A stretch of 64,000 bases of DNA from positions 1-64,000 of the forward strand of contig JAECUM010003732.1 in assembly GCA_016617855.1 (NCBI GenBank), written 5' to 3'. The DNA is from Megalonaias nervosa (taxonomy: Eukaryota; Mollusca; Bivalvia; Unionida; Unionidae). Shown here one piece after another: positions 11,372-62,171 of this stretch; position 1 is the stretch's first letter, and each line of letters opens with the position of its first letter. A model generated the notes under the pieces. It did not search any database. It was given only the letters and a program-made list of their open reading frames with translations, and was not told where the DNA came from. Both the position numbers and the translations under genes were made by a program.

Positions 11372-11379
11372 TTTACATA

Positions 11380-17238: not shown

Positions 17239-17272
17239 TGTTATTATAAATTAGATACAAGTATATTTTAAT

Positions 17273-19108: not shown

Positions 19109-19147
19109 TATATTAAAATAACTTTTACAATAATAACTTTCAATCGT

Positions 19148-19363: not shown

Positions 19364-19387
19364 TCTGTATTTGTAATTTAGATAAAA

Positions 19388-20025: not shown

Positions 20026-20094
20026 ATAAAATTAAACTAACAAATTGGCAATTTTGTTCCCATCGACATTCATACGAAACATTAAACTAAAAAA

Positions 20095-20484: not shown

Positions 20485-20503
20485 CTTATATTAAAGTTAC
20501 AGA

Positions 20504-21641: not shown

Positions 21642-21666
21642 TTTTTATTTATTAGATTACATAATT

Positions 21667-22813: not shown

Positions 22814-22875
22814 TGTTATTTATTATATTTTTACAAAATTAACATTTACAAAATTGACATTTACAAAAGTAACAT

Positions 22876-24387: not shown

Positions 24388-24392
24388 AATTA

Positions 24393-25094
24393 TTATATAA
24401 ACTTACTGCAGATAATTTTCAATACAACAACGAAACATTTAGTTGCATTATGTGTTAATTTATCAAACAAGAAAAACTTATATTTATCCGCTGTCGCCTT
24501 ATGATATAATTCAATAAATTTATCTTTTGCTACATCGCCACATTGCTGGTTTGAATATTTCTAACGTCAACATTGTCCAGTCCCGGAAATAATATAAAAC
24601 AACCAGTATTTCGCCTAATAAATCTGTCAACATTATAAAAACCTTGGGTTAAATAAACAGAATTACATTTTTTATTACGCGACAGTGAAAAATATGATTT
24701 TATTTTATTCATCTCTACATTATTTAGCGGAATATCGTCAAAAACTACTATCTTATGTTCGGACGAATCAAGTTGATTAACTGGAACAAGTTCTTCTGGT
24801 TGTCTGATAATAAAAAAAATCTTCACCAGCATCAAGATCATCACAAAGTTTGTTATTATATTCGCTTAGTAGCTCGTACTTATCTTGCTGTGGATTAATT
24901 GTATAAATATAAACTCGATCGTAATTAAAATTATCTCCGAGAAGTAAATTCATAAGTAAATTTGTTTGTCCCGACCCAGTTCGTCCAACAATAAGATAAT
25001 GACAAACTGGAAGTTCATTGTTATGTTTATGTTTCACCAGCCGCTCTGTATCAAAATTTAATATCGGTGACGACATTGTCGTTAACTTTGCCAT
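24393..25094 (-). pseudogene. Packaging ATPase (FtsK/HerA/A32 type), damaged P-loop
   Basis: Two overlapping frames: the first has the P-loop region GRTGSGQTNLL, the second the Walker B strand KIVVFDDIPL and the following NSVYLTQGFY. The frame shifts near 24,815. The invariant P-loop lysine is glutamine here (AAA to CAA by one base), so the ATPase would be inactive even without the shift. It would pump DNA into capsids. The gene lies head to head with the fibre gene, 36 bases between starts. Confidence 0.85.
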
Positions 25095-25130
25095 TGTTTG
25101 TTATACATTTTATGTTATATTAAATAAATA

Positions 25131-26537
25131 ATGAGCCATTATGCAAAATTTGGAACAACATTAGGAGATTCATCGGCCACAATAACAAACGGCAATATTG
25201 ATTTATCCGGATATTTAAAAAAAAAACTGGTGATAAAATGACAGGAAACCTGTCCATGTCAAATCAGTGAGTAATAGATTTAGAAACAGATTATCTGCCA
25301 ATAAATGTTGTTGATACACAAGCTGTTAGTTATAAACAACTAAAATCCGTCGACGGTAATAAACTAGATAAATCTGGCGGAACTTTAAGCGGCAACTTAG
25401 ATATGTCAGGGAAAAAAAATTATAAATTTAGAGACTGGATATCCACCAGCAAATTTAAATCAAACTCAAGCGGTAAGTTATTTACAGTTGAAGTATGTTG
25501 ATGATAATAAGCTTGATAAAATCGGTGGGACAATTACAGGTAATATTAACATGTCGAGTAAAATAAATATTGGGTTAGACACAGCGTATCCGCCAGCATA
25601 ATTTGATAATGCACAAGCTGTAAGTTATTTACAGTTGAACTATGTTGATGATAATAAGCTTGATAAAATCGGTAGGACAGTTACAGGTGATATTAACATG
25701 AAATATAAAAAAATTATTGGTTTAGAAACCGTATATCCACCATCAGATTTAGCACAAGCTGTAAGTTATGCACAACTAAAATCAGTTGACGATAGAAAAC
25801 TTAACAAAGCCGGTGACACAATGACAGGTAACCTTGCAATGAGTAATAACTCAAAAATAACTGGACTACGAACAACCTCACCACAAGCTGATGCTGATGA
25901 TATTAGTTATGCTCAGTTAAAAGAAGAACTTACCCCATATGTTAAGAAATCTGGTGGACCAGTGACAGGCAACATAAACATGAGAGACAAAAAAATAACT
26001 ACGACATATGTTCCAGTTAACTATAATGATCTGACAAATAAAGTTTATGTTGATAGTCTGTCTAGTGGTATAAAACGAACTAAAAATAATGTTGGATATA
26101 TTCCAACACTTTATAAAGCAACTGACAACCGAGCCGGGTTTGAGGTAAGTGCATTATCATATTATCCTGAAAATTATCCTTATTACGCTTTCTCTGATAG
26201 ACATGAGTGGACGACCAACGGAGAAGTTGAAAATTTTTGGATTAAAATTAAATGTCCTACTGCAGTTGCTATTTGGCAATTTCATTTGCGAGGTCGATTA
26301 AACTCTAGTGTTGGTCGAATTTATAATTGGCAATTGGAAGGCTCAAACGATGATATTAATTGGACAACATTGTATAGCACAACAGACACTTTCATTTCAG
26401 CAACACAATATGTTACAATCCCGACAGAAAACACTGTTAACAAGTACTTATATTTTCGAGTTAATGTTTTTGCTGCTGAACATCTATTTCCAGGACTAAC
26501 AGCATTTCAAATATATACACTCGATGATCAAATTTAA
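25131..26537 (+). pseudogene. Fibre protein with phage-tail-like repeats and discoidin-like head
   Basis: From ATG 25131 the gene encodes about six repeats of some 45 residues, each with a GxxxTGNI(N/D)M core (TGNLSMS, SGNLDMS, TGNINM, TGDINM, TGNLAMS, TGNINM) and a linker VSYxQLK. This is the pattern of phage tail-fibre shafts. The final 140 residues (IYNWQLEGSNDDINWTTLY, YLYFRVNVF) look like a discoidin/F5-8C carbohydrate-binding fold. Breaks: the A run at 25,217-25,226, a TGA near 25,270 and a stop/shift near 25,600; from 25,635 the frame is open for 300 codons. It likely served as the attachment fibre. Confidence 0.7.
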
Positions 26538-26554
26538 TCTAATGCTATAAAATA

Positions 26555-27099
26555 ATGACAACACAATGGTTTACAGACCTTGCGACAGAATTTTATGATA
26601 ATATTTTTAACCCCGCCAAAATGGTTGGAGATGATTCACTAGCGGCACGTGCGATAAATACCAGAAAAAAATTATTCAATTCCAATGATAAATTCTCCAT
26701 AGTCAGAGTAAGAAAAAAATTTGGTTCGTGTTATGTATATGCGGGGACCACAACTAAAAGAAGCAATAGAAAATTTTGAAGTGATAAGTAGATATTGTTA
26801 TCCTGATGATTGTCTAGAAGAACTTAACAAGTTGAAATTATTTTTAAAAAAATATTGCTCGAGCTTGATCCTGGAAATTTGGATTTGATAATAAAATCGA
26901 ACTTAATAAAACAACGAGCTTACGGTGAAAGAGAAGATATATAAAAATATTGTAGAAGATAGTCATGATGGTCTCAACAGATTTATGGAATCTAAAATAA
27001 TAAGAATAAAAAGAAACAAAAAGTTATACAATAGTTTCTTAAAACGAGAAATTTTTAAGTATCTCGGTATGTACTACCATGACAAAAAAAAAACCTAAT
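26555..27099 (+). pseudogene. Unrecognised element 1 gene, broken
   Basis: The first 74 codons are open (MTTQWFTDLATEFYDN), then frameshifts near 26,745 and 26,860-26,930 separate further coding-like pieces (ENFEVISRYCYPDDCLEELN and NIVEDSHDGLNRFMESK). It starts 18 bases after the fibre stop on the same strand, so it is probably co-transcribed. No domain is recognised. Confidence 0.45.
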
Positions 27100-27112
27100 T
27101 AAAATCTTTACT

Positions 27113-27856
27113 ATGACACCAGACACTGAGTTAACTATTAAAGCATACTCAAATGCAATTTTGCCAATGATACGTAAAAGACCAGAATTTGATCCGATTA
27201 TTATTGACAGATCCAAAAAGATAATCAAAAATTTTGACGATGAAATTAGTGATCTTAATGATATTGAGCGAGAAAAGTTTTTTGATAAAGTGAGCCAAAC
27301 AGATTTAGTAGCAAAGCCTGATTCTTATTTTGATATAGATGAAGAAGATGATATTTCATTTCCATCAATCCAGCGCTCTAAACAATTGTTATTACGAAAT
27401 TATTACAATGAAGTCGAGAAAATACTCACAAAACCATATGAAAAATTAATGTTAAAAGTAGCTTCTGCTATTGGTCTGATAACAATTGAACTAAAATCGC
27501 TCAAAAAATTAATGCTAGCAAATTTTGTGACTGCATATGTAATTATCAGACAACATCTTGTTTTAAAAAATTACATGTTAGATCAAGTAAGTTTGGTATT
27601 AGGGTATATTGATCAAACAGAAAGCGATTACAGTAATTTAGTGAATTAAACAGATTTGTATGAACGTAAAGTAGGAACTACTTTTGACTCATACGCTTGG
27701 TTAAAGAAAAATGAGGTACTAACAGATGAACGATATAAGGATACTTCGTCAGATGTTTATGACAAATACAGAATTTTTATAGCTGATCCTAGAAATGATA
27801 TTTTCCGTGAGTTTCTTGATTCGATTGCTGGTGCTAGAACTTTTGCCTTTGTATAA
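27113..27856 (+). pseudogene. Unrecognised helical protein, one internal stop
   Basis: A frame of 247 codons interrupted by one in-frame TAA at 27,647. It is helical and charged, with an acidic patch (DIDEEDDISF) and a hydrophobic helix around residues 120-150. Element 2 has no clear relative inside the window. It lies between the 26,555 gene and the terminal membrane gene on the same strand, probably as part of one transcription unit. Confidence 0.45.
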
Positions 27857-27867
27857 AATATTGTATA

Positions 27868-28360
27868 ATGAAAAAACATATCATCGATTTCAACCACATT
27901 TCAGAAGAAATTCCAAAACAAGATGTTGACGCACTAGTACAATATTATAAATTTTATCATAAAAACCTTTGGTGTGTAAAAGAAAGTTATAAATACTACC
28001 GTAGAATACTTCGAGTAATATCATATTTGCCATTGTTAATGACCAGCTCTGGTATAATCTCAAGTGGAGCATTATTAAATCCGTTTTGGTTAATAATATC
28101 TGGTGTCGGTGTCTCTCTTTCAACACTTGTAAAAAAAATTGAACCTAAACTTGAAACAAAAAAAACATTCTTGTAAAACAGCAAGTATCACTTACAAAAA
28201 CTTACTTGATCAAATACGATCTTATTTGCGAGGTGTAAAATATGATATGGACGATTTAATACGTGAGTTTCATATTATTGACAGTATGTTAACGGATATC
28301 CTACCAATGAGAGTCGGCAGGTATGAAAAAGATTATCATAAAATATGGTTACAACAGTAG
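27868..28360 (+). pseudogene. Terminal membrane protein, two TM segments, frameshifted
   Basis: The first 102 codons contain two adjacent hydrophobic segments (YLPLLMTSSGIISSGALL and PFWLIISGVGVSLSTLV) after a basic KYYRRILR stretch. A shift near 28,165 separates the C-terminal helical part (NLLDQIRSYLRGVKYDMDDL). It is the last gene before the right terminal repeat. The truncated gene at 63,772 of element 2b starts with the same layout (YKRRIVVIDVVV, then a glycine-rich second segment), so this is a conserved accessory membrane protein of unknown function. Confidence 0.6.
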
Positions 28361-28379
28361 TAGATCATCTTTCCAATTT

Positions 28380-28726
28380 TGGGAAGGGGTGGGGGGTAGG
28401 GTCCCTGATCTAGAATCCGCATTTGGTTTAGGATCAGCCTATTAGATTACTGAAAAAAATAAAATATTTTATCACTAAAAAAAGTTAATCCAGCAGGTCA
28501 TTGGAGTTCTAGTCCAGAATCTGTTTTTGGTTTAGGATCATCTTTCCAATTTTTGGTAGAGGGGTGGGGACTCCTCTTCAAGGTCGAAAAAAATTTCTGG
28601 CCACTCCAATAAAATATTTTTAGTCTTATTTTGAGCTGAAAATGACTCCTTAATAAAATCACAAAATAGAAAGTTCTATAGGATAATTCTCGGTTTGGTT
28701 TAGGATCTGCCTATTAGTTTACTACT
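28380..28726 (-). repeat. Right terminal inverted repeat of element 1
   Basis: It is the reverse complement of 10,580-10,930, with the same inner GGTTTAGGATC subunits, and ends at ACTACT just before the TATGT flank. Confidence 0.9.
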
Positions 28727-37759: not shown

Positions 37760-38785
37760 TTACTACGGTTCTGCCCATCCTACGGGCTACGGAGGTGTTC
37801 AAAATTTGTATTCCACTACCAAAACCCAACTGAAAAGTGTACGTTTACCTCAGGTGCAACAATGGTTACAAGAACAAGCCACGTACACGTTACACAAACC
37901 CATTCGACGAAAATTTTCTAGCAGTTGCACCGAAGTGGAGGGCATAGATCATCAATCACAAGCTGATTTAGCCGACGCCTCTCATTTGGCCACCTACCAT
38001 CACGGCTACACATATCTGTGTCATCGACGTCTTTTCCAAATTTGCCTGGGTCGCGCCTTTGACTTTCAAATCAAGCTCCGAGTTAGTGCGAGCCTTACAA
38101 CTGGTGTTGAAATAATGTGGTCGTCACCCTCTTCGATGGCAAACAGAAAATGCACCGAATTTCTGAAACAAGCTTTCAAAAAAGAATTGAAGAAAACAGA
38201 CATTCCTTTTTTCACCACCGAGAATCCCCAAACCAAAGCTAGCATCGTGGAGCGTTTTCAACGCACGTTAAAAAATGCATAGAAAATATTTTACTCATCA
38301 ACACACCCTCAGGGTCATCGACGTCTTACCGCGACTGGTCCAAGCTTACAAACCAGTCTTGCGGATATGCCCCCAAGAAGTGACTCCCGACAACAAAGTG
38401 ATCGTCTTTGAGCTCTGTTTGGTACGTCCACCTCTGTTGTCCCCAAGAAGCGTGGACTGTTGACGACGGGGGATTGGGTGTGCATTCAATAAAGGTTATT
38501 TACCCACCTGGACCACCGAATTGTTTTGTGTTACTGGACGAGTGCGTGGTCGCTATCCTCCCGTCTATAAATTGGAAGACATGAACGGCGAAATGTTGAA
38601 AGGAACTTTCTACTAGCCCGAGTTACAACGAGTGACCAAAAAAGAAGGCATGTAAGGCATCGAAAAAATTCTCGTTCGAAGAGCCCGCAAAATTGGTAAA
38701 CGACGTGAAAGAAGTGAATGTGCGTTGGAAAGGATATCCTCGAGTTTTAATTCTTGGATCGACTGTTCAGCAAAATAAAAAGAAG
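37760..38785 (+). pseudogene. Polinton integrase with C-terminal chromodomain, decayed
   Basis: The first block VQQWLQEQATYTLHKPIRRKF is the usual start of a Polinton integrase. The core keeps QADLADASHLA with the first Asp and ASIVERFQRTLK with the third catalytic acid; the middle acid is not certain. The C-terminal part shows RGRYPPVYKLEDMNGE and then a chromodomain remnant (SSFNSWIDCSAK near 38,745). Several shifts (for example 38,282 and 38,460) break it. The chromodomain may once have steered insertion to marked chromatin. Confidence 0.65.
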
Positions 38786-39545
38786 TGACCAACATGCAGT
38801 TCAACACAGCATCGGCAACAGCAGCGAACTCCTTCTCCGAGTTCTTCTCTTCAAGATCTACAAAAGCAACCCCTGTGGGTGTGTTGCGAAGAACGTCGGA
38901 GCAAAAACGTAATTGTCTTTATCTACTAAATCTTTGTGGTGTATTGTATCATTCGTGCCGCCATCGCCAATTTGAGTTTGCAACAAGGAGACAAACAATT
39001 CTGGACCATTTTACTTATCAGTTGCATCAGTTTCCTTCTACCCAATCCTTCCCTGAAATATTTTACCGGCAGTCACAACAGAAGCCTTGCGGACAACGCC
39101 AGTCCCCTTCAAAACAGGAACAACAACAACAACTCTCTTTTGGACACTCCTTTTTGACCTCAAGCGACTCCTCGGAAAGCAGAACTCTAGAATTACGAAT
39201 AACCAATTCTACTTAACTTTAACCAGTGACAGTTCCATGGATGTGTTTCCCAACAATAATTTGTGTTGTTTCACGGCCACATTACCTCAGACCATCCAAC
39301 TGGATCACGAAGCGTGTTGGGAAGTAATTTTGGTAGAAATCATTCACCCCACACAAGTCCAACAGGCTATTATTTTAACGGTCAACATCTGGTGGAAACG
39401 ATTTCCAGCGTTTTCAACAGACAGTTTAGAAAAACCCTGGACAAAACGAAGCGAAGTATCCTTATTCAGTACCACAGAATAACTCGTCGCAAGCTGATGA
39501 CATTTCCGGATAGCCCCCATCAGCAATTTCATTCATTTCTTGTTC
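38786..39545 (+). pseudogene. Capsid-associated Polinton protein remnant
   Basis: Frames at 38,785-39,216 and 39,087-39,482 together include FYLTLTSDSSMDVFPNNN (about 39,209-39,265) followed by CFTATLPQTIQLDHEACWEV. The pattern of a small number of conserved residues (DVFPNN, LPQTIQLD, WEV) marks a protein common in animal Polintons, likely a penton or minor capsid protein. It has stops and shifts. Confidence 0.55.
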
Positions 39546-39870
39546 AGCTCAGTGGATTTGTACATGAATAGCAACTTGGTCAGCTCAGCGGGGATACTTA
39601 CCATTACCGAGCGAACATAAAAGAAGCTAAGAACACGCATCTGGATGCCTGCGTAATATGTAAACCTAACAGCGGGAGAGGACAAGTTCAACTACGCAGC
39701 CGTGACAGAAGCTAACAATCTTCATAATGTGGGCTTTAACGACCGTTGAAAGAAAATCCTGCAAGGACGCAGTTCAGAACTGATGGATCGCTTGCATTTG
39801 GCCATGTGCTTGCAAGACAAGTATCTGTTGAACAGAGTGGATGTTTTCTTTCACGTACGCGCTTAAGGCA
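39546..39870 (+). pseudogene. Major-capsid-like fragment, truncated
   Basis: A fragment reads FNYAAVTEANNLHNVGF, then MDRLHLAMCLQDKYLLNRVD before the sequence runs into the right terminal array at about 39,900. The LHLAMCLQDKYLLNRVDV block resembles the core of Polinton capsid proteins. The remainder of the gene is missing, so the right side of element 3 was deleted or overwritten. Confidence 0.4.
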
Positions 39871-44029: not shown

Positions 44030-46075
44030 TTTTCTGGTTGTTAATAAGCCAAGACAACATATTACTGTTGAATAGTTTGAGCTGCATGATGGTTGCACGT
44101 ATCGCAGAAAGGAGAATCATGACAAGATAACAAAAGCATGTTCTTCACTGACCTTTGAAGACCCCAGTACCTTACGGAAGAAAGATTTTGGTGCTGACCA
44201 AATAACGTAACAGTTGGAAGCCCACGTGGGCCGACATGTGTTCGACATTAAAGAAGAATGCGATGTACGCAGTCATGGTTTCCTGTGGAGCACAATAGAA
44301 GAACCTGAATGCGACATTGTCATCATCAACATAAGGGCCTTCTACCCTGCATCTTTTCAGAATTACGATGAGGGTGTACCATAGATTGAATATTTCAGAG
44401 TTCACCTTAAAAGCCAGATTATTCGGATAGTCATAAATCGTCCCCTATATGAAGAAGATCTTACAGGTCTTACCCTAGTAGGCGACTGGGAGTTTGCAAA
44501 AACATGCAACACTGTAATAATGCTTGTTCTGGCAAGCGATTTCAGGAACGGTGCTGGATCCCGGTTGTGATATTCACGCAAAGACAGAGGCTAATCTGAT
44601 GCCAAAATTTTTAATGCACCATTATCTACCATGGGTTGTACATTTTGATTTTATACAGAATGGGGAGTAAACAATTTTCACCTATATTTTTGTCGCATTC
44701 TGAAGCAAATTATAGGAAATGAGGAAATATTTAGTCATAAATTGTTACATTTGTTCTCACCAATATGCTTAAGCATTCTGAACGAGATTTTCCGCAGGTC
44801 AAGTCAATAGTTGCAAAACAGTTTATTCATGTTTAAAAAACAAATCAAGAAACTTACTTTGTGGGTGTATTTTGGCTTTTACTAATTTTACAATGAATAT
44901 TACCATTCAGTGATGGAGAAAAGTGATTTCTGACAATGTGCATGTTTTGTTGGATAGTGTGTTTGTGAGATTTCATCTCCTTTTAAACTCTACGCTAAAA
45001 CAATGCTTTTGGATAGTGTGTAGCGGGTGTTGGATCGTAGAGGTGATCTGATGGTTAGTATATTTGTACCATTTCATCTCCTTCTTTAAACCCTACCCTT
45101 TTCTTCTGATAGTTGTTGTGGGGACATTAACAAAACGTTTTGAGTAGTGTGTATGGGGTATTGGATGGTAGGTATATTCGGACAGTATATTTGTATGGTT
45201 TCATCTTCTTTTACACAATATCCTTATCTTCTGATAGAATGTGTGGGATTTTAGGCACAACACAAGGCATTTGGATAGTGTGTAATGGTTATTGGATGGT
45301 ATAGTTGATGTGGTGGATAGTATACTTGTGAGATTTCATCTTCTTCATTTACATCTCATTTGTTGGTGTGGGATTTTAGAACCCCCACAAGGCATGTTAG
45401 TGTGTATATGGTGTTTGAAGACATAGGTGGTGTGGTATTTAGTATATTTGTGCGATTTTATCTCCCTTCTATAAACCCTACCTCTTTTTCTGATAGTAAG
45501 TGTGGAGACACTAAACAAGACGTTTTGGATTGTGTAGGGGATATTGGATGGTATATGTGATGTAATGGATAGTATAGTTGTGAGCTTTAGTCCCTTGATT
45601 TATACTCTACTCCTTTCTTCAGATAGTGTATATTTTTAGACAATAGACAAGGAGCTTTGGATAGTGTGTATGGGTTGATAGATAGTAGATAGCTATTCCA
45701 TGTTAATTTCTCGTAGGCTTTAATAAATTGTCGACGTTTTGAAGATAAACATTTTCGACTCTTTACTCCCGTTGAATTAAGTAAACAAATATCTTGTGTT
45801 AAATTCCAGTAGACCCCTATACATTTGGATAGTAATCAAAATATAGTTGCTAGATTGTGTAGTGGTGTGCTGGATAGTACTCAAGAATGTATTTGTTTGT
45901 CTATGTTATTGACAACATTAAAAAATCTTCAAAACCCTTTACCTTTTCACCAATTTAACATTACCATTCCCGTTGGAGTCTATAAAACCATCTGAGGCCA
46001 TAAATTCTTAGATTCCATAGGAAATGGCATTATGGCTTCAAATCTATTCTGTAATGTTCCTTTCCTATTTTGAGG

Positions 46076-46320
46076 AGCAGCAGAGGAGGTGAACAGACCA
46101 CTTGTCTGAATTGTCATTTGTCTAAAAAATAAAGGTTCCTACGAAGGCCGAAAATAAGGTCGATAACGCTAAACCAAAACCTCTAATTGACCATGAGATT
46201 TCTCTAATTGGGTTAGCTTATCTCGTTACTTTATCTCCGACTCTTTGTTTTTTTTTTTATGGCGTGTTTCGTTTACTCGCCGGGTCATTCAATTTTGGTC
46301 GTTCACCTCCTCTGCTGCTG
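46076..46320 (+). repeat. Terminal unit of element 2a with inverted arms
   Basis: A unit of 245 bases that starts AGCAGCAGAGGAGGTGAAC and ends with its exact 19-base reverse complement. The inside contains GTTCCTACG and GGTCGATAACGCTAAACC. It matches 58,496-58,772 in the same orientation, which is what left terminal repeats of two oppositely ordered elements should do. It ends 4 bases before the ATPase stop codon. Confidence 0.8.
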
Positions 46321-46324: not shown

Positions 46325-46993
46325 TTAACCAAAGATTTTATCCAGACCTATACGATACCTAGATCTTGGGTCATGTACATTTATTGTTATAAATCCGAAC
46401 GGAACAGCTTGTGCTTTTGAAAAGAAGTTTTTAAACTTAATTATGTCCATATCCCCTGAACACCAGGTATAATAAATATTTTGTAAGGTATAATTATCTA
46501 CTCCATTAAACACAACTAAAATATTGCAGTTGTCTCTGATCACTTTAGGTATTTGTGTATATCGCTGAGTAACATAAATCACGTCAGTATTTTTATGTCT
46601 GCCTCTGGAAAATATCCGAGCTGGATTTGATTGTTTGTCCAGCATCACAACATTATATACTACGAGGTTATTAATAAATCCATCTAGGTCATCTACAGAT
46701 GGAGTTTCGTCAATATCGGTGATAAAATCAATAATATCGTTTCCGTCTTCGTCCAATAATTTTGCATTTTTATTAAAATTTTTAAGTACTTCATAACATC
46801 GTTGATCATCTACAGATGGTGCTACTAAATATAATTTATTCCACTTGGGCCATCGCATTATCAGATTAAGTAATAATTGTGTCTTACCAGATCCAGATGG
46901 AACTATTATAATCATTCTAATAGAATTTGGTAGTGCTGGATGGTGCCTTACTGGTTCTTGTTTTCGTGTCGCTGAGAAGTCAATTATATCCAT
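46325..46993 (-). pseudogene. Packaging ATPase of element 2a, Walker B acids lost
   Basis: An uninterrupted frame of 222 codons. P-loop IIIVPSGSGKTQLLL at residues about 27-41; further RGRHKNTDVIYVTQRY, a typical motif of this ATPase after Walker B. The Walker B strand reads VVYNVVML, with N and V where two acidic residues are expected, so ATP hydrolysis should be lost although the frame is open. The gene lies at the extreme left of the element. It would load the genome into capsids. Confidence 0.8.
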
Positions 46994-47005: not shown

Positions 47006-47146
47006 ATGAGTTTATATTGTGTTAGATGCAGAGCTCCCACCCATACCAGTGGATTGACAACGATAATAACAAAAAATAAAAGACGTGCAATTACAGGCAA
47101 ATTTGTAAAATGTGGCACAAAAAAAATATATATTTATTCCTCTTGA
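47006..47146 (+). CDS. Small zinc-ribbon protein of element 2a (DUF5679-like)
   Basis: A 46-codon frame, MSLYCVRCRAPTHTS, then KRRAITGKFVKCGTKK. It has the first CXXC pair intact; the second is reduced to one Cys (KCGTKK), and the tail reads through an A run at 47,118-47,126 that may shift the frame. It matches the element 1 protein at 19,148-19,363 in layout and lies just before the PLA2 domain as there. Confidence 0.55.
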   Translation: MSLYCVRCRAPTHTSGLTTIITKNKRRAITGKFVKCGTKKIYIYSS

Positions 47147-47520
47147 CTTGTCAGTCAAAGGTGGAGATATCGCTGCTTCATTAGGGAAATTACCAGGAGC
47201 TCCATGGGCTAAATATCCTGGTGAGAAACATCTTCCTGGATACAATTATTGTGGTCCTGGAACTCGACTTGATATTCGACTTGACGAACGAGATCAACCA
47301 AGACCAGGAGGGCATCCAATAAATAAGATTGATCAAGCGTGTCATGTTCATGATGTTGCGTACAAAAATAAAGATTTACAACAACGGCATCTCGCAGATG
47401 TAAAATTGATTCATGCGTTAAATTCTGTACCCGATAAATCTCTCAGAGAAAACCTCGCTAGTTTTCTAATAAAAACTGCTATGAAAGGTAAAAATAATGC
47501 TAGGAGCTGGGTAATTAATT
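47112..47520 (+). pseudogene. Phospholipase A2-like protein of element 2a
   Basis: A frame with LGKLPGAPWAKYPGEKHLPG, then the calcium-loop region YNYCGPGTRLD and HVHDVAY with the catalytic HD pair, and a tail of helical charged sequence. The frame has no ATG at its start (it begins at GTG 47112 after an A run), so the true start is lost to a shift. Near its end one base shift would bring the stop at 47,512 into frame; without it the frame reads on into the integrase. The PLA2 type matches the parvoviral capsid domain that helps particles leave endosomes. Confidence 0.7.
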
Positions 47521-47534
47521 ATATGGTTATTATA

Positions 47535-48511
47535 ATGGAGTCCATTTATTATAGTCCAATAGGATATTGGAGAGGCAGAGCAGCGATTAGTAAACTTGCT
47601 GAAGTAGCAAAAGTCTCACGTGCTGTTGCTGCAGCGTGGTTAGCACGACAGGCAATATGGCAAATTTATCTACCACCACCTAAAACAATTCAGTATGCAC
47701 ATTTTGATGTCAGTACCCCTAATGAAGTTCATCAAGCAGATATTTTGTTTTTACCACATGATACTATTAAAACCGGTAGACGTCAATCACGCACATACAA
47801 ATACGCGTTAACCGTCGTTGACGTTGCAAGTAGATATAAGGAAGCAGAACCACTGTCAACAAAGACAGCAAATGAAGTTGCATCTGCATTTGAATGAATT
47901 TATCAACGAGGACCCTTGCGATGGCCACAACTATTACAGGTTGATCCTGGCAAAGAATTTCTTGGTGCAGTATTATCGTTGATGAACAAACATAACGTTA
48001 AAATCAGAGGAGGACACACTGAAATTCATCGTGATCAGGCAATCGTTGAACGATTTAATCGAACACTTGCTAAGCGGTTATTTGGATATCAATATGCAAA
48101 GGAAATATCCACTGACTTTAAGCCCCGGGGGGGAGATCTCGTGAATGGGTTGCAAGGTTGCCAAGTGTGATAGCTGCGTTGAATAACGAAATTACTCGTG
48201 CATCTTCTATGAAGCCTGCTAATGCAATTACAAAGAAATATATACCAATACAACGACGTGAATCTTCTTCTGAACCAGTACTAGGTAATGTGACTGTAAG
48301 ATATTTACATGAACCTGGTGAACTTGAAGGTGGTAAAAAAAGAGCAACTGATCCTATCTGGAGTGTGACTACACATAAAATTTCCAGCGAGGTTAGATCC
48401 ACAGGTAGACCTGCAATTTCGACGGCTCCTCAACGTGGATTTGTAAGCGAACAATTACAAGTAATTCCTGAGGACAACACAATTACCACCGCGTTCACTT
48501 TTGTAAACTAG
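47535..48511 (+). pseudogene. Retroviral-type integrase of element 2a (no chromodomain)
   Basis: From ATG 47535 the N-terminal domain (YSPIGYWRGRAAISKLA, then WLARQAIWQIYLP) resembles a small helix-turn-helix. The DDE core has QADILFLPHD, YALTVVDVASRYKEAE, LLQVDPGKEFLG (second Asp) and QAIVERFNRTL (third acid). The C-terminus has VRYLHEPGELEGG and RATDPIWS and lacks a chromodomain, unlike elements 1 and 3. Breaks: a TGA at 47,895 and a shift near 48,125-48,170 at a G run. It converges on the polymerase gene, overlapping by 17 bases. Confidence 0.8.
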
Positions 48512-51500
48512 CACCCCTACGTCGATTACATTCAAAACATGTCAGCATCACATTATTACGTGTATGACCAAGAGCACTATTAATTCTGTCTACGGTGAAC
48601 TGTCTTGGATTATTACTCGAATATTTCCATAGCGTATTACAGTTACAACTTGCACAATAATTGTTCTGTTGTTGTTTCAGTGTCATAATTAATTCAGTAT
48701 CAATATCAAAATCGCGATTATTTTTTTTTTATCACATTGCTTATAACCAAATAGTTTTTTTCTTATTACGTCATTGCTAGCAGTTTGATCATTATTTTCT
48801 GTAAAATTCATAATAACCCTGTGCAGTTGAGATATTCTTCTGACTCGAGATACTGCGAGATAAACTAAATTTGACCATTCGATCCGATCATCGACAATCC
48901 AGATATTTGTATTAGATATAGTTAATCCCTGTGACGAATGAATTGTTATAGCATATCCTAATTTCCATGGAGTTTTATCCATGATCAACGCGCTCTCAAC
49001 AACATCAACATTAACTAAAACAATATCATTCAATACAAGATTTTGTTTTTCATTTGTTCCTGGAATTTCAACTTCAATATTCTGTCGTCGAGTATCCGCT
49101 GGGTGATAAAACAATGGTACAGGTAGATTTGAAATTTTTTTTATGTAACAGAAATAATTTCTCCTACAGTTCATCACGAACAATTTTTCTACTCGCAACT
49201 ATTAAATCATTTGGTCTCTATAAATTCCAAAAATCATTCACAGGAGTTTCAGGAATTACTTTACGTATTATCTCACATTGTATTCTATCTGGCTGTAGTC
49301 TGATTAATCTTTTAAATTCTTTCAGAGGTTCATCAATAGCTCTGTGATCGTCATTTATTTCTTCATAATAATCTACAGATGATTTTGACCATTCATGCGG
49401 AGATTGACCGACGAAGTGTGGTGGTTGACCATGATCGCCACACATTATTACAGCAGTATTTTTAGTCAATAACCATTCAAGGAATATTTTTAATATTTCT
49501 AACGGTACCGTGTCCATCTCGTCCCAGATAATATACTTAGGTATATATTTCTCACCCATTCGCTCAGGAGTCCATGTGTCTACGCACCATCTGAAGAAAC
49601 TATGATATGTACATGATTTTGCTCCTCGTTCTTTTATTTCTCTGGCGAGTTTATGTGTCGGTGTCAAAACAATTATATCTGAATGGTTGTTCAGGAATAA
49701 TTTAATCGCACGAGTTGTTTTACCTGAACCACCACATCCATTAAGATAAACAGTCTTATGTCTAGCCACAGGATCGTATACAGATGGTGCAGATGACAAT
49801 TCTGATATCTGATTATTTTTGTAATATATTTCCTTTATTTCAATGTCGGCAGATTCAGAATAACTAAGTATATTTTCTTGTTTTATTCTCCATGATCCCC
49901 ATTCACCATTACCGAGTAGCGGTTTTAACAAATCCGCATATTTTTTATTTATATAAAATGAATCCGTAGCAATTCTGACAGCGTAACGAGGAAATCTATT
50001 CATCATCGACAGTAGATTTATCGAAACGTACGCTAGCATCGAAGATCTTAAATGAGTAAATTGCGGTGAGTCGCCATCAATATAGCTCAGAATTGTACCT
50101 AGCTTGGTTCCGTCTGATAAATAAGCATTACTTCGACTTATAAATGTTTTTTTTTTTCCGTTGTATCAGCGATTATAAAATCGAGTTCAGCATCGTCCAT
50201 AATTAATCTTGTACAGTGTCGTTTATGATCATCTGATCCTCCTTGTGTAAATTTACCGATTATCTTTCTACCAAGATCTTTTGCAAATTTCTCATCGCTT
50301 TCTTTCCTGCATTTAGATATATTATCAGCAATTTTAACAATATCATCTTCGTTAAGATCAGGAAATTCTTTCCTGACATCATCAATATTAAATCTATCCG
50401 GTTCTTGTAACCAAACTTGTTTCTGTGGACGATACGATATAATCGCTTCATTTACTTTCGATGATATCAATATTTTATTATCGAGCATATATCGTAATAG
50501 TACTATTGGAACCCAACATTTTTCTGAAAAAATGTTTTCCAAACCAAGTATAAGTAATCGGATGGAGATTTTCCGTAAACTCGAATGATTCTATATAGAC
50601 GAATCCGGTTAAGTCAAAATCTGGCAAGGGTCCGTTTATCGCAACTCTGGTCATCTCGTGTGATGGATGTCCAAATTTCTTAAAGTATTCAGAACACTCT
50701 CCATATCCAAGAAAACTTCCAGGATAACACGCTACCATATCAACTGAGATAACGTCGTTATAATCGTATTTAGTATTCCATAATCCACCGTGCCCATATT
50801 CAATACAACTTTTCTGGACATCTTCAAGAAATTCCAATCGTGTCGGTTTCCATGAATTTTTCTCCTGAGCAAAGTGAGCAGCAACTGATGGAACGGTAAA
50901 ACAATTATTCAGTAATTGTCCAACCTTAACATCGTCAGAAGTATATTTTAATGCAAGATCTTTCATTTCTCCATGAAGAGATTCTGTACGATAAATATCC
51001 CCACCAGGCCGTACAAACTGATCATAATAATCATATTCTGAACTTTGAAACAACCAAACGGATACAGGGTCACTTTTACTGATATATTCGATAAAATTAA
51101 ATATAGGACCATTATAAAATTTAACTGTTCTGTCTCGTGGAAATATTGTTACTGCCACAGTCCATGCGTGTGCGTTATGATCAATAATATCTATCGAAGC
51201 TCCTCTTGATTCATATTTCGATTTATACAAAATCTCTCCGGTTAACGTCTTCACTGTTATTGGAAATTTTAATTTCCTTCCCAGCTCAGCATCATCTTTA
51301 ATAGACGCTCCGGTATCTTTAACTGCTTCTGCCCACGTATTTATTTTTTTACGTGGTGAATTCGTTAAACCATTACCACGTATCGCGTTTGTGAAGTGTT
51401 CTGAAACTCGTTCAGCTACACAATTTATTCTTAACTCTGACAGTCTCATCGGCTTGAGATCATTGACGTCAGGTTTATTATTCAGCGGATATATTGCATA

Positions 51501-51962
51501 GACAACCGCAGTAACTGGATATGCTCGTTCATAATACGGTTTGTCAATACCAGTCAGTATTCCCGGTTTGGATTTTTTATTCAAGAGAACAATATTATTT
51601 CCTGACTGCATGCGTACAGGATCACGTTTGTCACGGATAATCCAAGTGTCGTCATCTGTCCTTACAATAAATTTTATTAAAATGAAATATTTTTGAACAT
51701 CAAGGTGGTTGATAATCCCTCTTCCTCGTTTATCATTCATTATAATATCGACAACATTTCCGATTCTGAATGTTGACCGCACATGAGCCGCACCATCGTC
51801 ACGAAATTCCTTCTTGGCTTCACGGATACGTTTGGTTATATCCTCATTTGTTAAAGCCAGGTCTTGCATCGAAAAACTAAATTTATATTTCGGTAGTCTG
51901 TCAAGATCAAATCTAGCTCCCGCTAAGACGGCGGAAGGTTCAATTGCGGATAATTCCTCCAT
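48495..51962 (-). pseudogene. Family B polymerase fused to SF1 helicase and endonuclease VII-like finger
   Basis: One long minus-strand gene of about 1,150 codons, start ATG 51962 (MEELSAIEPS). The first 480 codons are novel up to polymerase motif A (VISVDMVACYPGSF, near 50,740). A motif-B-like block (RKIIGKFTQGG, near 50,250) and a motif-C-like block (YAVRIATDSFYI, near 49,965) follow, with one of the usual two Asp replaced by Ala. Then come helicase motifs: GCGGSGKTT, TPTHKLARE, IIWDEMD, CGDHGQPPHF, IHSSQGLT and LAVSRVRR. The end is a CXXC/HNH finger (YCASCNCN, DRINSALGHTRNN, CFECNRRR). No exonuclease motifs are evident. Breaks: near 50,540, the T run at 50,147-50,157, about 49,205, and the T run at 48,721-48,730. 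It replaces the ordinary Polinton polymerase. Confidence 0.75.
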
Positions 51963-55904: not shown

Positions 55905-56292
55905 GTTTTCTGCTTGTATAATTCCTTGACCCGTTGCTTTCTTTAACGCCATTCCAGCAGCGGTTCCAACAGCGCCTGATGCAGCTGCTTTTGCAACAGC
56001 TGGGGCTGCAGGGGCTCTTAATGCTGGTATAGCTGCAAGAAGTGGAAAAATTCAGCCAGATTTAACAATATCTTTGATAGCGCCCGCAGAAAGATTAAGT
56101 TTTATACCTTTATTTGATTTTTTGGCTTCATTGAAGTTTCTGAACTGACGCTCGGTCAACGATAATTTATTTGCACCGCTCATTTGTTCTTTTTTTTAGC
56201 GATATTTTTATTCCACAGTTATTTTTTGATGCTGATTGTAGCCTTTTAATCTGACCAGGAGTCAGACTGACATTAACGTGATTATATGACAT
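55905..56292 (-). pseudogene. pX-like small virion protein of element 2a
   Basis: The inverted partner of the intact gene at 61,779-62,171: it starts MSYNHVNVSLTPGQIKR. A shift at the T run 56,190-56,197 and a TGA near 56,055 (a GGA in the other copy) break it. The Ala-rich hydrophobic part (AVAKAAASG) is retained. Confidence 0.7.
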
Positions 56293-56313
56293 TAAATATT
56301 ATGAGTGATCTAA

Positions 56314-57663
56314 TTACATGTTTTCTACTGGAGCATCAACGACTCTCATTCGTCCACCAACACCTTCAAGTAACATTGATTTATAGCTGAGAATAATGGC
56401 AATTGCTCTGTAATTAGGAATTGCTATAATATTTCTGTTAACACGAGCTCGAAAATGTATATCTACAACAGATTGTCTAGTTAAATCTAAATGTTCCAGC
56501 GAAAAGTAATAAATTGGATATAAAGTTGTAAAATCTAACTGTGATATTTGTAAACCAGAATCAATATTCTGATCACGCCCCATGAATGTCATTAATCGAT
56601 GATATACACGTGCTACATGATTTAGCTCGAAATTCAACAAAATATCTTCGGATGGTTCTTGATGTCCATTTATTCTTAGTGAAACCTTAGAAACACCAAG
56701 TTTGTCAAATATCATCGAACTTTGTGTTTGATTATTTAATCGTACATTATTTTGAAGCGCAATGAATATATGCAGAGGCAGAGATGCCTTGCTGAGAAGC
56801 TATTTGCCATATGAATAAACCATTAATTGCACTTTGAACACTATCTGTGGTCATTGTTAACCATGATAACATTGATTTACCACCTTGACCCATAAAAGAG
56901 AGTAAATGTTCATCCACAATGAAAGTTTTGTTAGCACTACTTTACCATGAAGTGCTCTAGTTGCAGCATCATCAGCTCCTTCAACGTGCCATATTGCATC
57001 ATCGTCCGTGGCTTTTCTTACAAGTACAACTGTGTGCTTGGCTCCGAAAATAACTTTTCTAACATTTCTGCAGAATCCAAAAATATGTGATAATGGAATT
57101 GTACATGAAAACATTCTATCTTTCAACATTGCTTTACGTGATGCAAATCCTAAATTAAAATTTACATTCATTGATATTACTGCGGGAGTATCTGCGGTTC
57201 CTGCAGCGTTTCTTACATTACCTATAGTTACAGTTTTGTGATTTGGATGATCAGAAGTGTCCTTGGTAAACATCATTGATAGACCAACTGATCTGGAATA
57301 ATCGTCGCTGTATCTTGAAAGACCAAGTATCGTCGTTGCAACGTCAACATCTTTTTGAATTGATTCAATATTTTTTCCGTCAATCATGTACGTAGCGCTG
57401 TCGAACAAAGCCATGATTCCATTATTAACAAAACCAAAACCATCATCGTTTCCGTATTCAGTATTATCTGCTTTAAAAATTTTACCTTCAACTTCGATGA
57501 ATGCTTCAGCGGGTAAGAAATACCTACCTGTATCTTGAACTTGAAGTTCACGCTGATCTGGAATTCGAGCGTCATAAGAATAATATTGATAATCACGCAC
57601 AGACTCATCTTTAAGAACCGGTGCGTCCATGTCAAATGAGGGATCAGATATACGTTTGAACAT
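56314..57663 (-). pseudogene. Major capsid protein of element 2a
   Basis: The inverted partner of 60,365-61,755. The first 250 codons are open (MFKRISDPSF, VEGKIFKAD, FGFCRNVRKVIFGAKHTVV) and the last 133 are open (MIFDKLGVSK to VDAPVENM). Frameshifts between about 56,770 and 56,960 separate them. Unlike copy 2b, the frame here is continuous across the FIALQNN-MIFDKL joint, showing that the two parts belong to one gene. Nine bases after IPDQR are missing relative to copy 2b. Confidence 0.85.
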
Positions 57664-57677
57664 CTTTATTATATTTA

Positions 57678-58124
57678 TTATCGTCTAACACGAAGACCAC
57701 TCCCAGCTATTAGACTAGCGGTTATATTTTTTTCTTTTTCTGATAGTGGTACATCAGCCAATTCTGCTAGTTTTTGTTTCTCAGCTTGATTTATTATTTT
57801 ACTAAAATTTGCGAGCATCACTTCAGTACTGGGTAATTTTACTGGCTGAGGTTTTCGTCGTATTAATCGTGCTAGTCTATCCTTAATTGCTGAGAATGCT
57901 TTACAAGCAAGATTACCAACAGCACCAATACCTTTTTCACGAACAACATCAATAGCTTTCATTCCCAGTTGCTTTGCAAGCGGTATTGCTTTTGGGGCTA
58001 TCCTTCTAAATAGACCTTGAACAACATCACCTAATCCATCTCAGTGGGTTGTTTTGTATACTGGTAATCGTGAATTTATTACCCTGGCCATGGTCGGTCC
58101 ATGTTGAATATTATGTATGATCAT
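57678..58124 (-). pseudogene. pVI-like protein of element 2a, one TGA
   Basis: The inverted partner of 59,901-60,350. Starts MIIHNIQHGP; an in-frame TGA near 58,043 stands where copy 2b has GGA. The rest is open to the end IAGSGLRVRR, a possible protease-site motif (I-A-G-S-G). Confidence 0.7.
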
Positions 58125-58155
58125 TTTATTATAGTCACTGTATTTAATTACGTAC

Positions 58156-58500
58156 TCAATCACTGTGGTAGTCCTCGGCGATTTCATTAATGAGAGACCG
58201 ATACACATTAATATCCATGATACCGCCTATAAATAATCGTTTACAAATATCAGCTGCTTCATTAATGATTTCTGGGGAATTATTACCAGCTCGTTTTCCT
58301 CCAATTAGAATCTCCAGTCGATTAACATCGGAGAGAACGCTGTTTGGACAAGTAATAAAACCACTTCCCTGATTAGTAAAACCGCTTCCAGTGGGAGGTT
58401 TTAACAGTCCTAATTCTTCTAAATCTTTTCGTGATTTTTCTTCTCTTCTTTTCCTTTCTTCTTCCTCTCTTTCATATTTTCGGTTCATAAGTTCTAGCAG
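58156..58500 (-). pseudogene. GSG virion protein of element 2a, N-terminus cut off
   Basis: The C-terminal part of the 354-aa protein of copy 2b: GSGFTNQGSGFITCPN, LEILIGGKRAGNNSPE, INEIAEDYHSD. Upstream it has a charged coil (EREEEERKRREEKSRK) that differs from copy 2b, and then the sequence runs straight into the terminal unit at 58,496. The first two thirds of the gene are missing, so the boundary marks a truncation of element 2a. Confidence 0.7.
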
Positions 58501-58804: not shown

Positions 58805-59869
58805 ATGGTTGTCATCGGAGAACCTCATTCAGCTAGATTAGCACGAGAGCGACTAGAAGCAATTAGAAAATATTTACCTGTTCGTGATGCTGTTCGACAA
58901 CAATTACAAGAACAACAGGAATCTCATGTTGAATTTGAAAAGGATACAAAACAATTATTTAAACCTATTACAGAGACAACTAAACCTCTTCTTCCTGTTT
59001 TAGTGAAAACCGCTGAGGCAACTGAAAAAATAGCGGAGAGAACAAAACAGACAAAAAGACTTTTACGTGGACTTCCAGCTGATATAGCTGCTGCTCAGCC
59101 ACAACCACAACCACAACCACGACAACCAAAAACCAGAATTAAGATAATAGATAAATTTACACCTGAAGGTATTGCTGCTATCAGGGACAAAGACCAATTA
59201 CTTGATATTGCCGCATTTGGATATTATGAAAGACAAAAATATGTAAAACCAGAACATGTTAAATCTCTGAACTCTGCCAATTGGATTAAGGATGTATATC
59301 GCATATATACTGATATTCCAGAAATTAGATCTAATAAAGATATTAAAGATTTTAATGAATTTGATGAGGCTGTACATAACTATATGAAAGAAAAAATTAA
59401 ACAATTGCCACAATCTCCAAAACCACGAAAACAACCACGATTTAAATCACCACTATCACCAGTGCTACCACCACTACCACAACAAGAATCACCACCACAA
59501 CAACAATTGCCACAAATATTATCACCACTACCACAGCAATTGATACAATCTTCAAAACAACAGAAATCAAGCAAAAAGGAAGAGGAGGAAGAAGAATATT
59601 GGCCGTCAGACACCTCTTCTGGCAACGTAAGTGGAAGTGGATTTACTACTCATGGAAGTGGTCTCGTTACTTCGTGTCCTAATAACGTCCTTGCCGATGT
59701 TGAACGACTAGAAATCCTCATCGGAGGAAAACGAGCTGGTAATAATTCTCCAGAAATAATTAATGAAGCAGCTGATATTTGCAGACGATTATTTACCGGT
59801 GGTATCATGGACGTTGATGTTTATCAGTCTCTTATTAATGAAATTGCCGATGATTACTACAGCGACTAA
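58805..59869 (+). CDS. 354-aa virion protein with coil, P/Q-rich region and GSG/AGN end
   Basis: Intact. Residues 1-95 are helical and charged (ERLEAIRKYLPVRD, TEKIAERTKQTKRLL). Residues 98-110 are PQ repeats; 115-200 form a mixed region; 200-265 are rich in Pro, Gln and Ser, then an acidic EEEEEEYWPSD block. Residues 275-354 form the conserved end: GSGFTTHGSGLV, CPNNVLADVERLEIL, AGNNSPEIINEAADIC. Related genes: 58,156 (element 2a) and 22,876 (element 1). It is the first gene after the terminal unit. It is likely an internal scaffold or core protein, possibly cut at GSG by the protease; the role is inferred. Confidence 0.65.
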   Translation: MVVIGEPHSARLARERLEAIRKYLPVRDAVRQQLQEQQESHVEFEKDTKQLFKPITETTKPLLPVLVKTAEATEKIAERTKQTKRLLRGLPADIAAAQPQPQPQPRQPKTRIKIIDKFTPEGIAAIRDKDQLLDIAAFGYYERQKYVKPEHVKSLNSANWIKDVYRIYTDIPEIRSNKDIKDFNEFDEAVHNYMKEKIKQLPQSPKPRKQPRFKSPLSPVLPPLPQQESPPQQQLPQILSPLPQQLIQSSKQQKSSKKEEEEEEYWPSDTSSGNVSGSGFTTHGSGLVTSCPNNVLADVERLEILIGGKRAGNNSPEIINEAADICRRLFTGGIMDVDVYQSLINEIADDYYSD

Positions 59870-59900
59870 GTACGTAATTAAATGCAATTACTATAATAAA

Positions 59901-60350
59901 ATGATCGTACATAGTACTCAGCGTGGACCAACCATGGTCAGAGTAATAAATTCACGATTACCAGTATACAAAGCAACCTACGGAGATGGACTAGGTGATG
60001 TTGTTCAGGGTCTATTTAGAAGGATAGCCCCAAAAGCAATACCGATCGCAAAGCAACTGGGAATGAAAGCTATTGATGTTGTTCGTGAAAAAGGTATTGG
60101 TGCTATGGGTAATCTCGCTGGTAAAACATTTTCAGCGATCAAAGATAGACTAGCACGATTAATACGACGAAAACCTCAACCACCGGTAAAATTACCTAGT
60201 ACTGAAGTAATGCCTGCAAATGTCAGTAAAATAATAAATCAAGTTGCTAATCAAAAACTAGCAGAGTTGGCTGATGTACCAATGTCAGAAAAAGAAAAAA
60301 ATATAACCGCTAGTCTGATAGCTGGAAGTGGTCTTCGTTTTAGACGATAA
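59901..60350 (+). CDS. pVI-like amphipathic minor capsid protein of element 2b
   Basis: Start ATG 59901 chosen because the inverted partner at 58,124 starts alike; the open frame reaches further upstream. It has the helix GDGLGDVVQGLFRRIAPKA (residues about 29-47), a basic tract (RLARLIRRKPQPP), and ends IAGSGLRFRR. A terminal hydrophobic-x-G-x-G motif matches the pattern cut by adenovirus-type proteases. The layout of amphipathic start, basic centre and cleavable end resembles adenovirus pVI, which disrupts endosome membranes, but similarity is by layout only. Confidence 0.6.
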   Translation: MIVHSTQRGPTMVRVINSRLPVYKATYGDGLGDVVQGLFRRIAPKAIPIAKQLGMKAIDVVREKGIGAMGNLAGKTFSAIKDRLARLIRRKPQPPVKLPSTEVMPANVSKIINQVANQKLAELADVPMSEKEKNITASLIAGSGLRFRR

Positions 60351-60364
60351 TAAATATAATAAAT

Positions 60365-61755
60365 ATGTTTAAGCGAATATCTGATCCAGGATTTGACATG
60401 GACGCACCGGTACTCAAAGATGAGTCTGTGCGTGATTATCAATATTATTCTTATGACGCTCGAATTCCAGATCAGCGTGGACGAATTGAACTGCAAGTTC
60501 AGGATACAAGTAGATATTTCCTACCCGCTGAGGCGTTTATTGAAGTAGAAGGTAAAATTTTTAAAGCGGATAATACTGAATACGATAATAATGTTGCTTT
60601 TGGTTTTGTTAATAATGGCATTATGGCGTTATTTGACAGCGCCACTTATATGATTGATGGTAAAAATATTGAATCAATTCAGAAGGACGTTGATGTTGCT
60701 ACAACGATATTAGGTCTAGCACGATATAGCGACGATTATTCAAGATCAGCTGGTCCATCAATGATGTTTGTAAAGGACACTTCTGATCACCCGGATCACA
60801 AAAATGTAACTACAGGTAATGTAAGAAATGCTGCAGGAACCGCAGAAACTCCCGCAGTATTATCAATGAACGCAAATTTCAACTTAGGATTTGCATCACG
60901 TAAAACAATGTTGAAAGATAGAATGTTTTCATGTGCAATTCCACTTTCACACATATTTGGATTTTGCAGAAATGTCAGAAAAGTTATTTTTGGAGCCAAA
61001 CATACGGTTGTACTTGTACGAAAGGCTACAGACGATGATGCAATATGGCACGTTAGAGGAGCTGATGATCCTGCAACTGTGGTACTTCATGGTAAAGTAG
61101 TATTAACCAAACTTTCATTATGGATGCCGGTGATGACTCCAACAGTACCTGAAGAAGAACGTCTACTCTCTTTTATGAATCAAGGTGGTAAATCAGCGTT
61201 GTCATGGTTAACAATGACCACAGATGCTGTTCAGAGTGCAATTAATGGTTTATTTACATGGCAAATAGCTTCTCAGCAAGGTGTTTCTGCACCACGACAT
61301 ATATTCATTGCGCTTCAGGATAATACACGTGTAGGTAATCAGATAAAAGTTTAATGATATTTGACAAACTTGGTGTTTCTGAAGTTTCTTTAAGGATAAA
61401 TGGACATCAAGAACCATCCGAGGATATATTACTGAATTTCGATCAAAATCATGTAGCACGTGCATATCATCGTCTAATGACGTTCATGGGTCGTGATCAA
61501 AATATTGATACTGGTTTACAAATATCACAGTTAGATTTTACAACCTTATATCCAATTTATTACTTTTCGCTCGAACATTTAGATTTAACCAGACAGTCAG
61601 TAGTCGATATACATTTTCGAGCTCGTGTTAATAGAAATATTATAGAAATTCCTAATTACAGAGCAATTGCTGTTGTACTCAGCGATAAATCGATGTTACT
61701 TGAAGGTGTTAGTGGACGAATGCGAGTAGTTGATGCTCCAGTAGAAAACATGTAA
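60365..61755 (+). pseudogene. Major capsid protein of element 2b, one frameshift
   Basis: Two long frames: 60,365-61,354 (MFKRISDPGF, FLPAEAFIEVEGKIF, YSDDYSRSAG, FGFCRNVRKVIFGAKHT) and 61,354-61,755 (MIFDKLGVSEV, FTTLYPIYYFSLEH, SGRMRVVDAPVENM). The joint at TAATG looks like a translational overlap, but copy 2a is continuous across the same place, so a short deletion near 61,340 shifted the frame. Total about 463 codons. The double jelly-roll shell protein of the particle; its N-terminal FKRISDP start is fixed by the intact partner. Confidence 0.85.
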
Positions 61756-61778
61756 TTAGATCGTTTATGAATATTGTA

Positions 61779-62171
61779 ATGTCGTATAATCACGTTAGTG
61801 TTAGTCTGACTCCTGGTCAGATTAAAAGGATACAATCAGCATCAAAAAATAACTGTGGATTAAAAATATCGCTAAAGAAAGAGCAGATGAGTGGCTCAAA
61901 TAAATTATCTCTTACAGAACGTCAGCTCAAGCATTTCAATGAAGCCAAAAAATCAAATAAAGGTACAAAACTTATTCTTTCTGCGGATGCCATTAAAGAT
62001 ATCATTAAGACGGGTGGTATATCTCCACTTCTTGCTGCTATACCAGCATTAATAGCTGCTGCAGCCCCAGCTGTTGCAAAAGCAGCTGCATTAGGCGCCG
62101 TTGGAACCGCTGCTGGAATGGTATTAAAGAAAGCAACAGGAAAGGGAATCAAAAAAAGGGAAGGGGTCTAA
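61779..62171 (+). CDS. pX-like small virion protein of element 2b
   Basis: Start ATG 61779 (MSYNHVSVSL) chosen by match to the inverted copy. Repeats SLTPGQIKRIQSA and SLTERQLKHFNEA, then SADAIKDIIKTGG, lead to a hydrophobic Ala-rich domain (LLAAIPALIAAAAPAVAKAA) and a GTAAGMVLKKATGKG end. A short alternate-frame tail beyond (GKGLRLPG twice, 62,160-62,232) suggests that the original protein ended in LPG motifs, as the element 1 LPG gene does. Likely a minor virion protein with membrane-active or DNA-binding role. Confidence 0.65.
   Translation: MSYNHVSVSLTPGQIKRIQSASKNNCGLKISLKKEQMSGSNKLSLTERQLKHFNEAKKSNKGTKLILSADAIKDIIKTGGISPLLAAIPALIAAAAPAVAKAAALGAVGTAAGMVLKKATGKGIKKREGV

Follow-up and report, generated by a model that had tools for sequence, protein, structure and literature searches.

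The fused gene in the Megalonaias nervosa contig

The window analysed here, a stretch of 64,000 nt from Megalonaias nervosa (contig JAECUM010003732.1 of assembly GCA_016617855.1), carries Polinton/Maverick elements, and the subject of this report is a gene of one of them, read on the minus strand from 51962 to 48495. An earlier note on this DNA, made from the sequence alone, had proposed that the palm motifs of a family B DNA polymerase, the motifs of a superfamily 1 (SF1) helicase and an HNH finger stand together in this one gene, and all of the motifs that it cited were located within 48495-51962, in the order that it had given:

50712-50741, minus: DMVACYPGSF, palm motif A
50237-50260, minus: IGKFTQGG, motif B
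49950-49976, minus: RIATDSFYI, motif C (ATDS)
49713-49742, minus: Walker A
49515-49532, minus: WDE
49425-49445, minus: GDHGQ
48920-48949, minus: HSSQG
48836-48856, minus: RVRR
48645-48656, minus: CASC
48564-48593, minus: HNH core
48525-48539, minus: CFEC

The window copy is a pseudogene, split by stops and frame changes into at least five frame pieces (52130-50478, 50590-50138, 50165-49218, 49198-48689 and 48728-48495), over which the parts of the gene are distributed as follows:

50478..51962, minus: N-terminal region, vOTU-like Cys (51408-51428) and His (51162-51179), and palm motif A, in one frame piece
50138..50590, minus: palm motif B piece (GKFTQGG)
49218..50165, minus: palm motif C and the N-terminal half of an SF1 (Pif1/Dda/RecD2-like) helicase, by profile matches
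48689..49198, minus: C-terminal helicase half with motifs V and VI (PHROG 325, UvrD_C_2, PIF1 structures)
48495..48728, minus: zinc finger of HNH/endonuclease VII type, at the gene end (PHROG 1035)

Profile searches of each part bore out the assignments of the helicase (AAA_19) and of the finger (PHROG 1035), but the proposed palm was matched by no library profile. The helicase piece at 49218-50165 matched Pfam AAA_19 (E=2.9e-11 to 3.9e-11), the Dda-like family PHROG 325 (5.3e-09) and the RecD2 model (1.4e-07, though far under the equivalog cut-off). The C-terminal helicase half matched PHROG 325 (2.4e-07) and PIF1 structures (E 0.002), while Pfam UvrD_C_2 gave 0.0065, under its cut-off. For the finger (48495-48692) the match to the endonuclease VII family PHROG 1035 reached E=1.5e-10 and that to Pfam HNH merely 0.087; HNH/endonuclease VII profiles matched both the window piece and an intact copy from elsewhere in the genome.

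Relatives in the host genome

The host genome (2.19 Gb in 54,709 contigs) carries one let-7 match over the family cut-off (E 4.0e-10), and as let-7 is a bilaterian marker, this match identifies the host as an animal. The helicase piece gave at least 141 scored matches in it, comprising the window itself and 140 others with 88-95% identity, and by hand count the aligned part was stop-free in 104 of the 141 matches listed. Eight loci taken from this search and 20 fetched ones, leaving out the window copy (L029), made up the 27 other loci that were examined; the fetched copies had been chosen for long open frames, so that the sample is non-random.

A stop-free frame of at least 400 amino acids matching the family was present in 25 of these 27 loci (the exceptions were L032 and L033), and in two of them, L038 and L037, one natural frame runs without a break from the N-terminus across the HNH finger. 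That of L038 is a single frame of 1,151 amino acids ending with the finger, with motif C at residue 662 and Walker A at 739; in L037, residues 1-1147 were matched in one frame, and the tail differs and is longer. These uninterrupted frames imply that all of the parts form one protein. The claim of a single reading unit was therefore upheld, even though the window copy is itself broken, and in place of separate helicase and polymerase genes in intact relatives, which had been named beforehand as the outcome that would refute it, one frame was found.

The tail after the finger was altered or extended in seven of the 13 copies reaching the finger end. An altered, longer tail of the same kind occurs in L037, L046, L047, L048, L051 and L056 and might mark a sublineage; L049 has another. 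One copy, L043, is a chimeric frame that begins in a fibre-like gene and continues into the fused polymerase, and is apparently an internal deletion copy. The helicases of L038 and L050 are identical, so the two may represent alleles on separate contigs instead of recent insertions, and the copy counts may include haplotype duplicates.

Related proteins were also sought in the viral contig collection, using the window pieces, the major capsid protein (MCP), alignments and the intact copy as queries, and none was found, although scans of this kind, which are seeded by short exact words, carry little weight. A search of the same collection with a motif B pattern yielded 28 stretches, with no palm recognised among them. 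Neither the genome contig collection nor the phage collection yielded a relative, and the plasmids gave one distant MobF helicase.

Conservation and selection

Conservation was counted over 25 natural frames, chosen without Walker A as a selection filter (L040 and L031 were included). The Asp of motif A was kept in 22 of 23 frames, the Gly, Lys and Gln of motif B (GKFTQ) in 24 of 24, and the second Asp of motif C likewise in 24 of 24. The first position of motif C, where the earlier note had read Ala in place of Asp, was Ala in 21, Thr in 2 and Ser in 1 of 24 natural frames, and never Asp. The vOTU-like Cys (12/13) and His (18/19) were similarly conserved, and the single misses at these two residues and at the motif A Asp all fall in the chimeric L043, whose front belongs to another gene. 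In the helicase, the Gly, Lys and Thr of Walker A were kept in 24/24 frames, the Asp and Glu of Walker B in 23/23 and the Arg of motif VI in 20/21. The first zinc Cys of the finger was kept in 13/14, and the Asp, Asn and His of the HNH core in all 13 copies that extend that far.

The ratio of non-synonymous to synonymous substitution rates (dN/dS) was estimated by the Nei-Gojobori method for 24 frames (L043 was left out), using pairs with dS >0.02 and at least 60 codons. The medians were 0.216 for the palm (273 pairs), 0.200 for the helicase (252), 0.241 for the N-terminal third (170) and 0.263 for the HNH part (65), in a sample biased towards intact copies by the selection of long frames. Frames chosen with the Walker A filter gave similar medians (palm 0.207, helicase 0.198, N-terminal third 0.240, HNH 0.306). 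The fused protein is under purifying selection.

These data bear on the question of whether the palm works at all. A 2016 paper by Krupovic reportedly speaks, in its title, of an "inactivated DNA polymerase". The authors of a 2024 preprint (Krupovic, Kuhn, Fischer and Koonin; PMC11071308) state that they formerly held the change of the motif C Asp to be inactivating, and this former view, together with the constant absence of the first metal-binding Asp here, would suit a palm that is a dead structural remnant in a helicase-nuclease, with another polymerase copying the element. We consider this unlikely: the motif A Asp, the second motif C Asp and the motif B Lys are retained as counted above, the same preprint lists active polymerases that lack the same Asp, and dN/dS is about as low in the palm as in the helicase, a similar degree of constraint that argues against a dead palm. 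The selection data thus touch a question already raised in print, whether the ATD palm is dead, as in the earlier view, or active, as predicted in 2024.

Comparison with the canonical polymerase of element 1 and its relatives

Element 1 of the window carries a canonical animal Polinton polymerase (pPolB, 15486-13049), which has at least 64 matches in the host genome. In agreement with the earlier note, according to which a related element has the normal polymerase, this gene contains Exo I (DFE) together with an endonuclease VII finger; in its relatives L060 and L066, motif C reads DTD. The canonical frame L066 contains the Cys/His pair, Exo I DFE, the endonuclease VII finger, motif A, motif B (NNSVFGK) and motif C (DTDS). 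Exo I, the DTD of the relatives and the position of the finger between Exo I and the palm distinguish the canonical protein from the fused one, and a helicase was not seen in it.

Spacing was compared between the fused L038 and the one canonical frame L066, with the Cys and His picked by eye. The Cys-His distance is 84 amino acids in the fused protein and 87 in the canonical one, that from the motif A Asp to the GK of motif B is 161 and 172, and that from GK to motif C is 95 and 91, whereas the distance from the vOTU-like His to motif A is 142 against 472. The fused protein hence resembles the canonical layout minus an exonuclease region of about 330 amino acids, with helicase and HNH finger added behind motif C, and the loss of the exonuclease, which had been proposed from missing motifs, can be seen as a gap of that length. 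The two kinds of element also have related MCPs (36% identity over the common stretch).

The window gene is probably a broken replicase copy from a lineage of animal Polintons in which a Tlr1-like protein (pPolB-S1H type) takes the place of the usual polymerase. Several results weigh against this reading. The N-terminal 700 amino acids had no significant match in Pfam, NCBIfam, PHROG or the PDB; for the N-terminal 548-amino-acid window piece, Pfam and NCBIfam gave nothing, and the best values in PHROGs (0.16) and the PDB (0.098) are at chance level. Similarity between the fused and canonical proteins was non-significant in both the palm and the vOTU stretches (z 0.40 and 0.58 against shuffled alignments), and hhalign gave the two palms a probability of 0.1, on a chance stretch and with nearly flat profiles (Neff 1.3). 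An AlphaFold2 model of window piece 1 alone, from a single sequence, had a pLDDT of 29, which makes it uninformative for a protein-primed palm with TPR1/TPR2 and for the fold of the vOTU-like stretch, and that stretch had no OTU profile match. As regards the element, a 6-bp target duplication is a hallmark of Polinton/Maverick insertions, and the flanks of the one copy checked differ, with no matching duplication. The polymerase of element 1 likewise had no polymerase match in Pfam or NCBIfam, so that the silence of the profiles on the fused palm is weak evidence. Since neither a palm fold nor significant palm similarity was obtained, membership in the family rests on architecture.

The lack of profile, PDB and pairwise support for the palm would also be expected if the first 700 residues were not a polymerase at all and the motif matches were due to chance. 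This we hold to be highly improbable, because three motifs and a Cys/His pair occur in canonical order with similar spacing, are conserved under selection, and lie at the gene position of the element's replicase.

The element around the fused gene and its neighbours

Besides the fused gene, the following features of its element (element 2) and of related remnants were located in the window:

44206..44572, plus: broken motif A region of a second fused-type palm, a divergent relic with 32% identity to the main family (tblastn E 2.65e-10)
46126..46320, no strand assigned: what is left of the terminal repeat on the ATPase side of element 2, seen as two short stretches matching the terminal inverted repeat of a related copy (76% and 83%)
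46325..46993, minus: A32-type packaging ATPase (Pfam Pox_A32 9.9e-09)
47112..48170, plus: phospholipase A2 (PLA2)-like domain and RVE integrase, broken (Phospholip_A2_4 1.3e-12; rve 9e-4, under cut-off)
56857-57663, minus: MCP with double jelly roll (DJR), truncated (DJR-like Pfam 4.6e-07; 87% identical to the element 3 MCP)
56314-56715, minus: minor capsid protein (mCP) of the same element as this MCP

The divergent palm has one further copy elsewhere in the genome (72% over 46 amino acids). A scan of the whole window gave no Rfam or tRNA matches.

Flanks were checked in ten other fused copies (nine of the 20 fetched and C323), each flank being a separate stretch. The integrase/PLA2 gene and the ATPase lay downstream of the fused gene in all ten, the mCP and the fibre-like gene upstream in nine, and the protease upstream in eight; the MCP was found within six of the ten upstream stretches, several of which stop inside it. 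The one copy that departs from this on the capsid side is the chimeric C18537, whose stretch is also ended by the contig end. A canonical polymerase was present in none of the 20 flank stretches, and the fused gene occupies the place of the canonical pPolB in these elements.

The Polinton/Maverick features found comprise the RVE integrase, packaging ATPase, DJR MCP, protease and terminal inverted repeats, with weak profiles for the protease and the integrase. In one copy the terminal inverted repeats are 271 nt long with zero mismatch, at 15.8 kb end to end. For the element 3 MCP, 122 scored matches were obtained in the host genome. Two fused-type element copies lie head to head in the window, at 55914-58358 and 59667-62156, with arms that are 83-94% complementary; element 2 has apparently lost the end on its capsid side, where it abuts the terminal repeat of element 3, which belongs to the same family and runs in the opposite orientation. 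Element 1 (10580-28726) is a near-complete canonical Polinton of 18.1 kb, whose polymerase is broken in the window and whose inverted repeats of about 350 nt (10580-10928 and 28392-28726) are 89-93% complementary.

It was also observed that, in fused-type and canonical Polintons alike, a parvovirus-type PLA2-like domain adjoins the integrase (47112-47897 and 18560-19108), and that element 1 carries NUMOD1 and HNH_3 open reading frames (ORFs) of homing-endonuclease-like type (12152-12601 and 16542-16961) on the strand opposite its polymerase. The region 37806-39571 holds short ORFs, one with an integrase-like tail recognised by eye, that have no Pfam match and may be a further Polinton remnant.

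Relation to known replicases

The earlier note knew no description of the function of such proteins, but this view must be given up. The 2024 preprint (PMC11071308) describes the same architecture in the Tlr1-like helicases of polinton-like viruses, Tlr1 elements and transpovirons: variable N-terminal domains, a vOTU domain with Cys and His, a protein-primed palm without exonuclease in which the first Asp of DTD is changed, an SF1 helicase, and a C-terminal GIY-YIG or HNH nuclease, for which a homing-type origin is suggested. The preprint renames these proteins pPolB-S1H and predicts for them DNA polymerase activity, with protein priming helped by the helicase. As this published prediction retains protein priming, the copying mechanism that the earlier note had inferred to be different need not be a wholly different one.

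If the fused protein acts as predicted for the published family, the linear element would be copied by protein priming at its ends. The N-terminal part would serve as terminal protein and carry the first nucleotide, the vOTU part would cut the terminal protein free, the palm would extend the strand using its remaining acids, and the fused helicase would open the duplex ahead. As a nuclease retained at the C-terminus, the HNH finger may be of homing or nicking type; a homing-type origin fits, and a nicking role is possible.

The same build could have arisen separately within animal Polintons, by a swap of the exonuclease for a helicase, giving a protein that resembles a Tlr1-like helicase in its action but does not belong to that family. 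The relatedness of the capsid module to that of the neighbouring canonical Polinton would agree with such an origin, as would the lack of a relative in the viral contig collection by protein queries and motif pattern, in scans that are weak. On the other hand, the domain order with loss of the exonuclease, the changed Asp, the vOTU-like pair and the C-terminal HNH all match the published family (PMC11071308), and we consider a separate origin unlikely. We give a similarly small chance to its fuller form, an independent helicase-for-exonuclease replacement with the build of the protist Tlr1-like proteins, in a lineage that has multiplied in the germ line of an animal and whose ATD palm is catalytically active.

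On the favoured assignment to the Tlr1-like family, a replicase type that the sections consulted describe from protist viruses and giant-virus plasmids would now be placed in an animal, at high copy and beside canonical Polintons. Related elements that replicate by two strategies in one host would allow a direct comparison of exonuclease and helicase. In the related literature, as far as its accessible text extends, we found no report of this fusion in an animal genome, and there may be an earlier animal case.

Other fusions are known from protist elements. The Helicase SF1-pPolB of OmPLV, a polinton-like virus of Oxyrrhis marina in which copies are mostly fragmented (PMC12721341), is alike in joining an SF1 helicase to a family B polymerase, but its helicase is N-terminal and its exonuclease is kept, the reverse of the fused gene. 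SF1-GIY-YIG fusions and N-terminal HNH-helicase fusions are reported in PMC12220804. HelPol (PMC11071296), despite its name, is not described as a helicase fusion in the part of that source consulted.

The closest counterpart remains the Tlr1-like/pPolB-S1H group, with which the fused gene shares an N-terminal extension, a Cys/His pair that would fit a vOTU domain, a palm without exonuclease (recognised here by its motifs), the replaced first Asp of motif C, an SF1 helicase behind the polymerase and a C-terminal HNH. By this comparison of architecture, the two differ in their setting: the hosts named in the available part of the preprint (PMC11071308) are protists, algae and giant-virus plasmids, whereas the fused gene belongs to a multi-copy animal Polinton with PLA2. 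The kind of replicase therefore seems to be one already known, and the animal setting, the copy number and the selection on the palm seem to be what is new.

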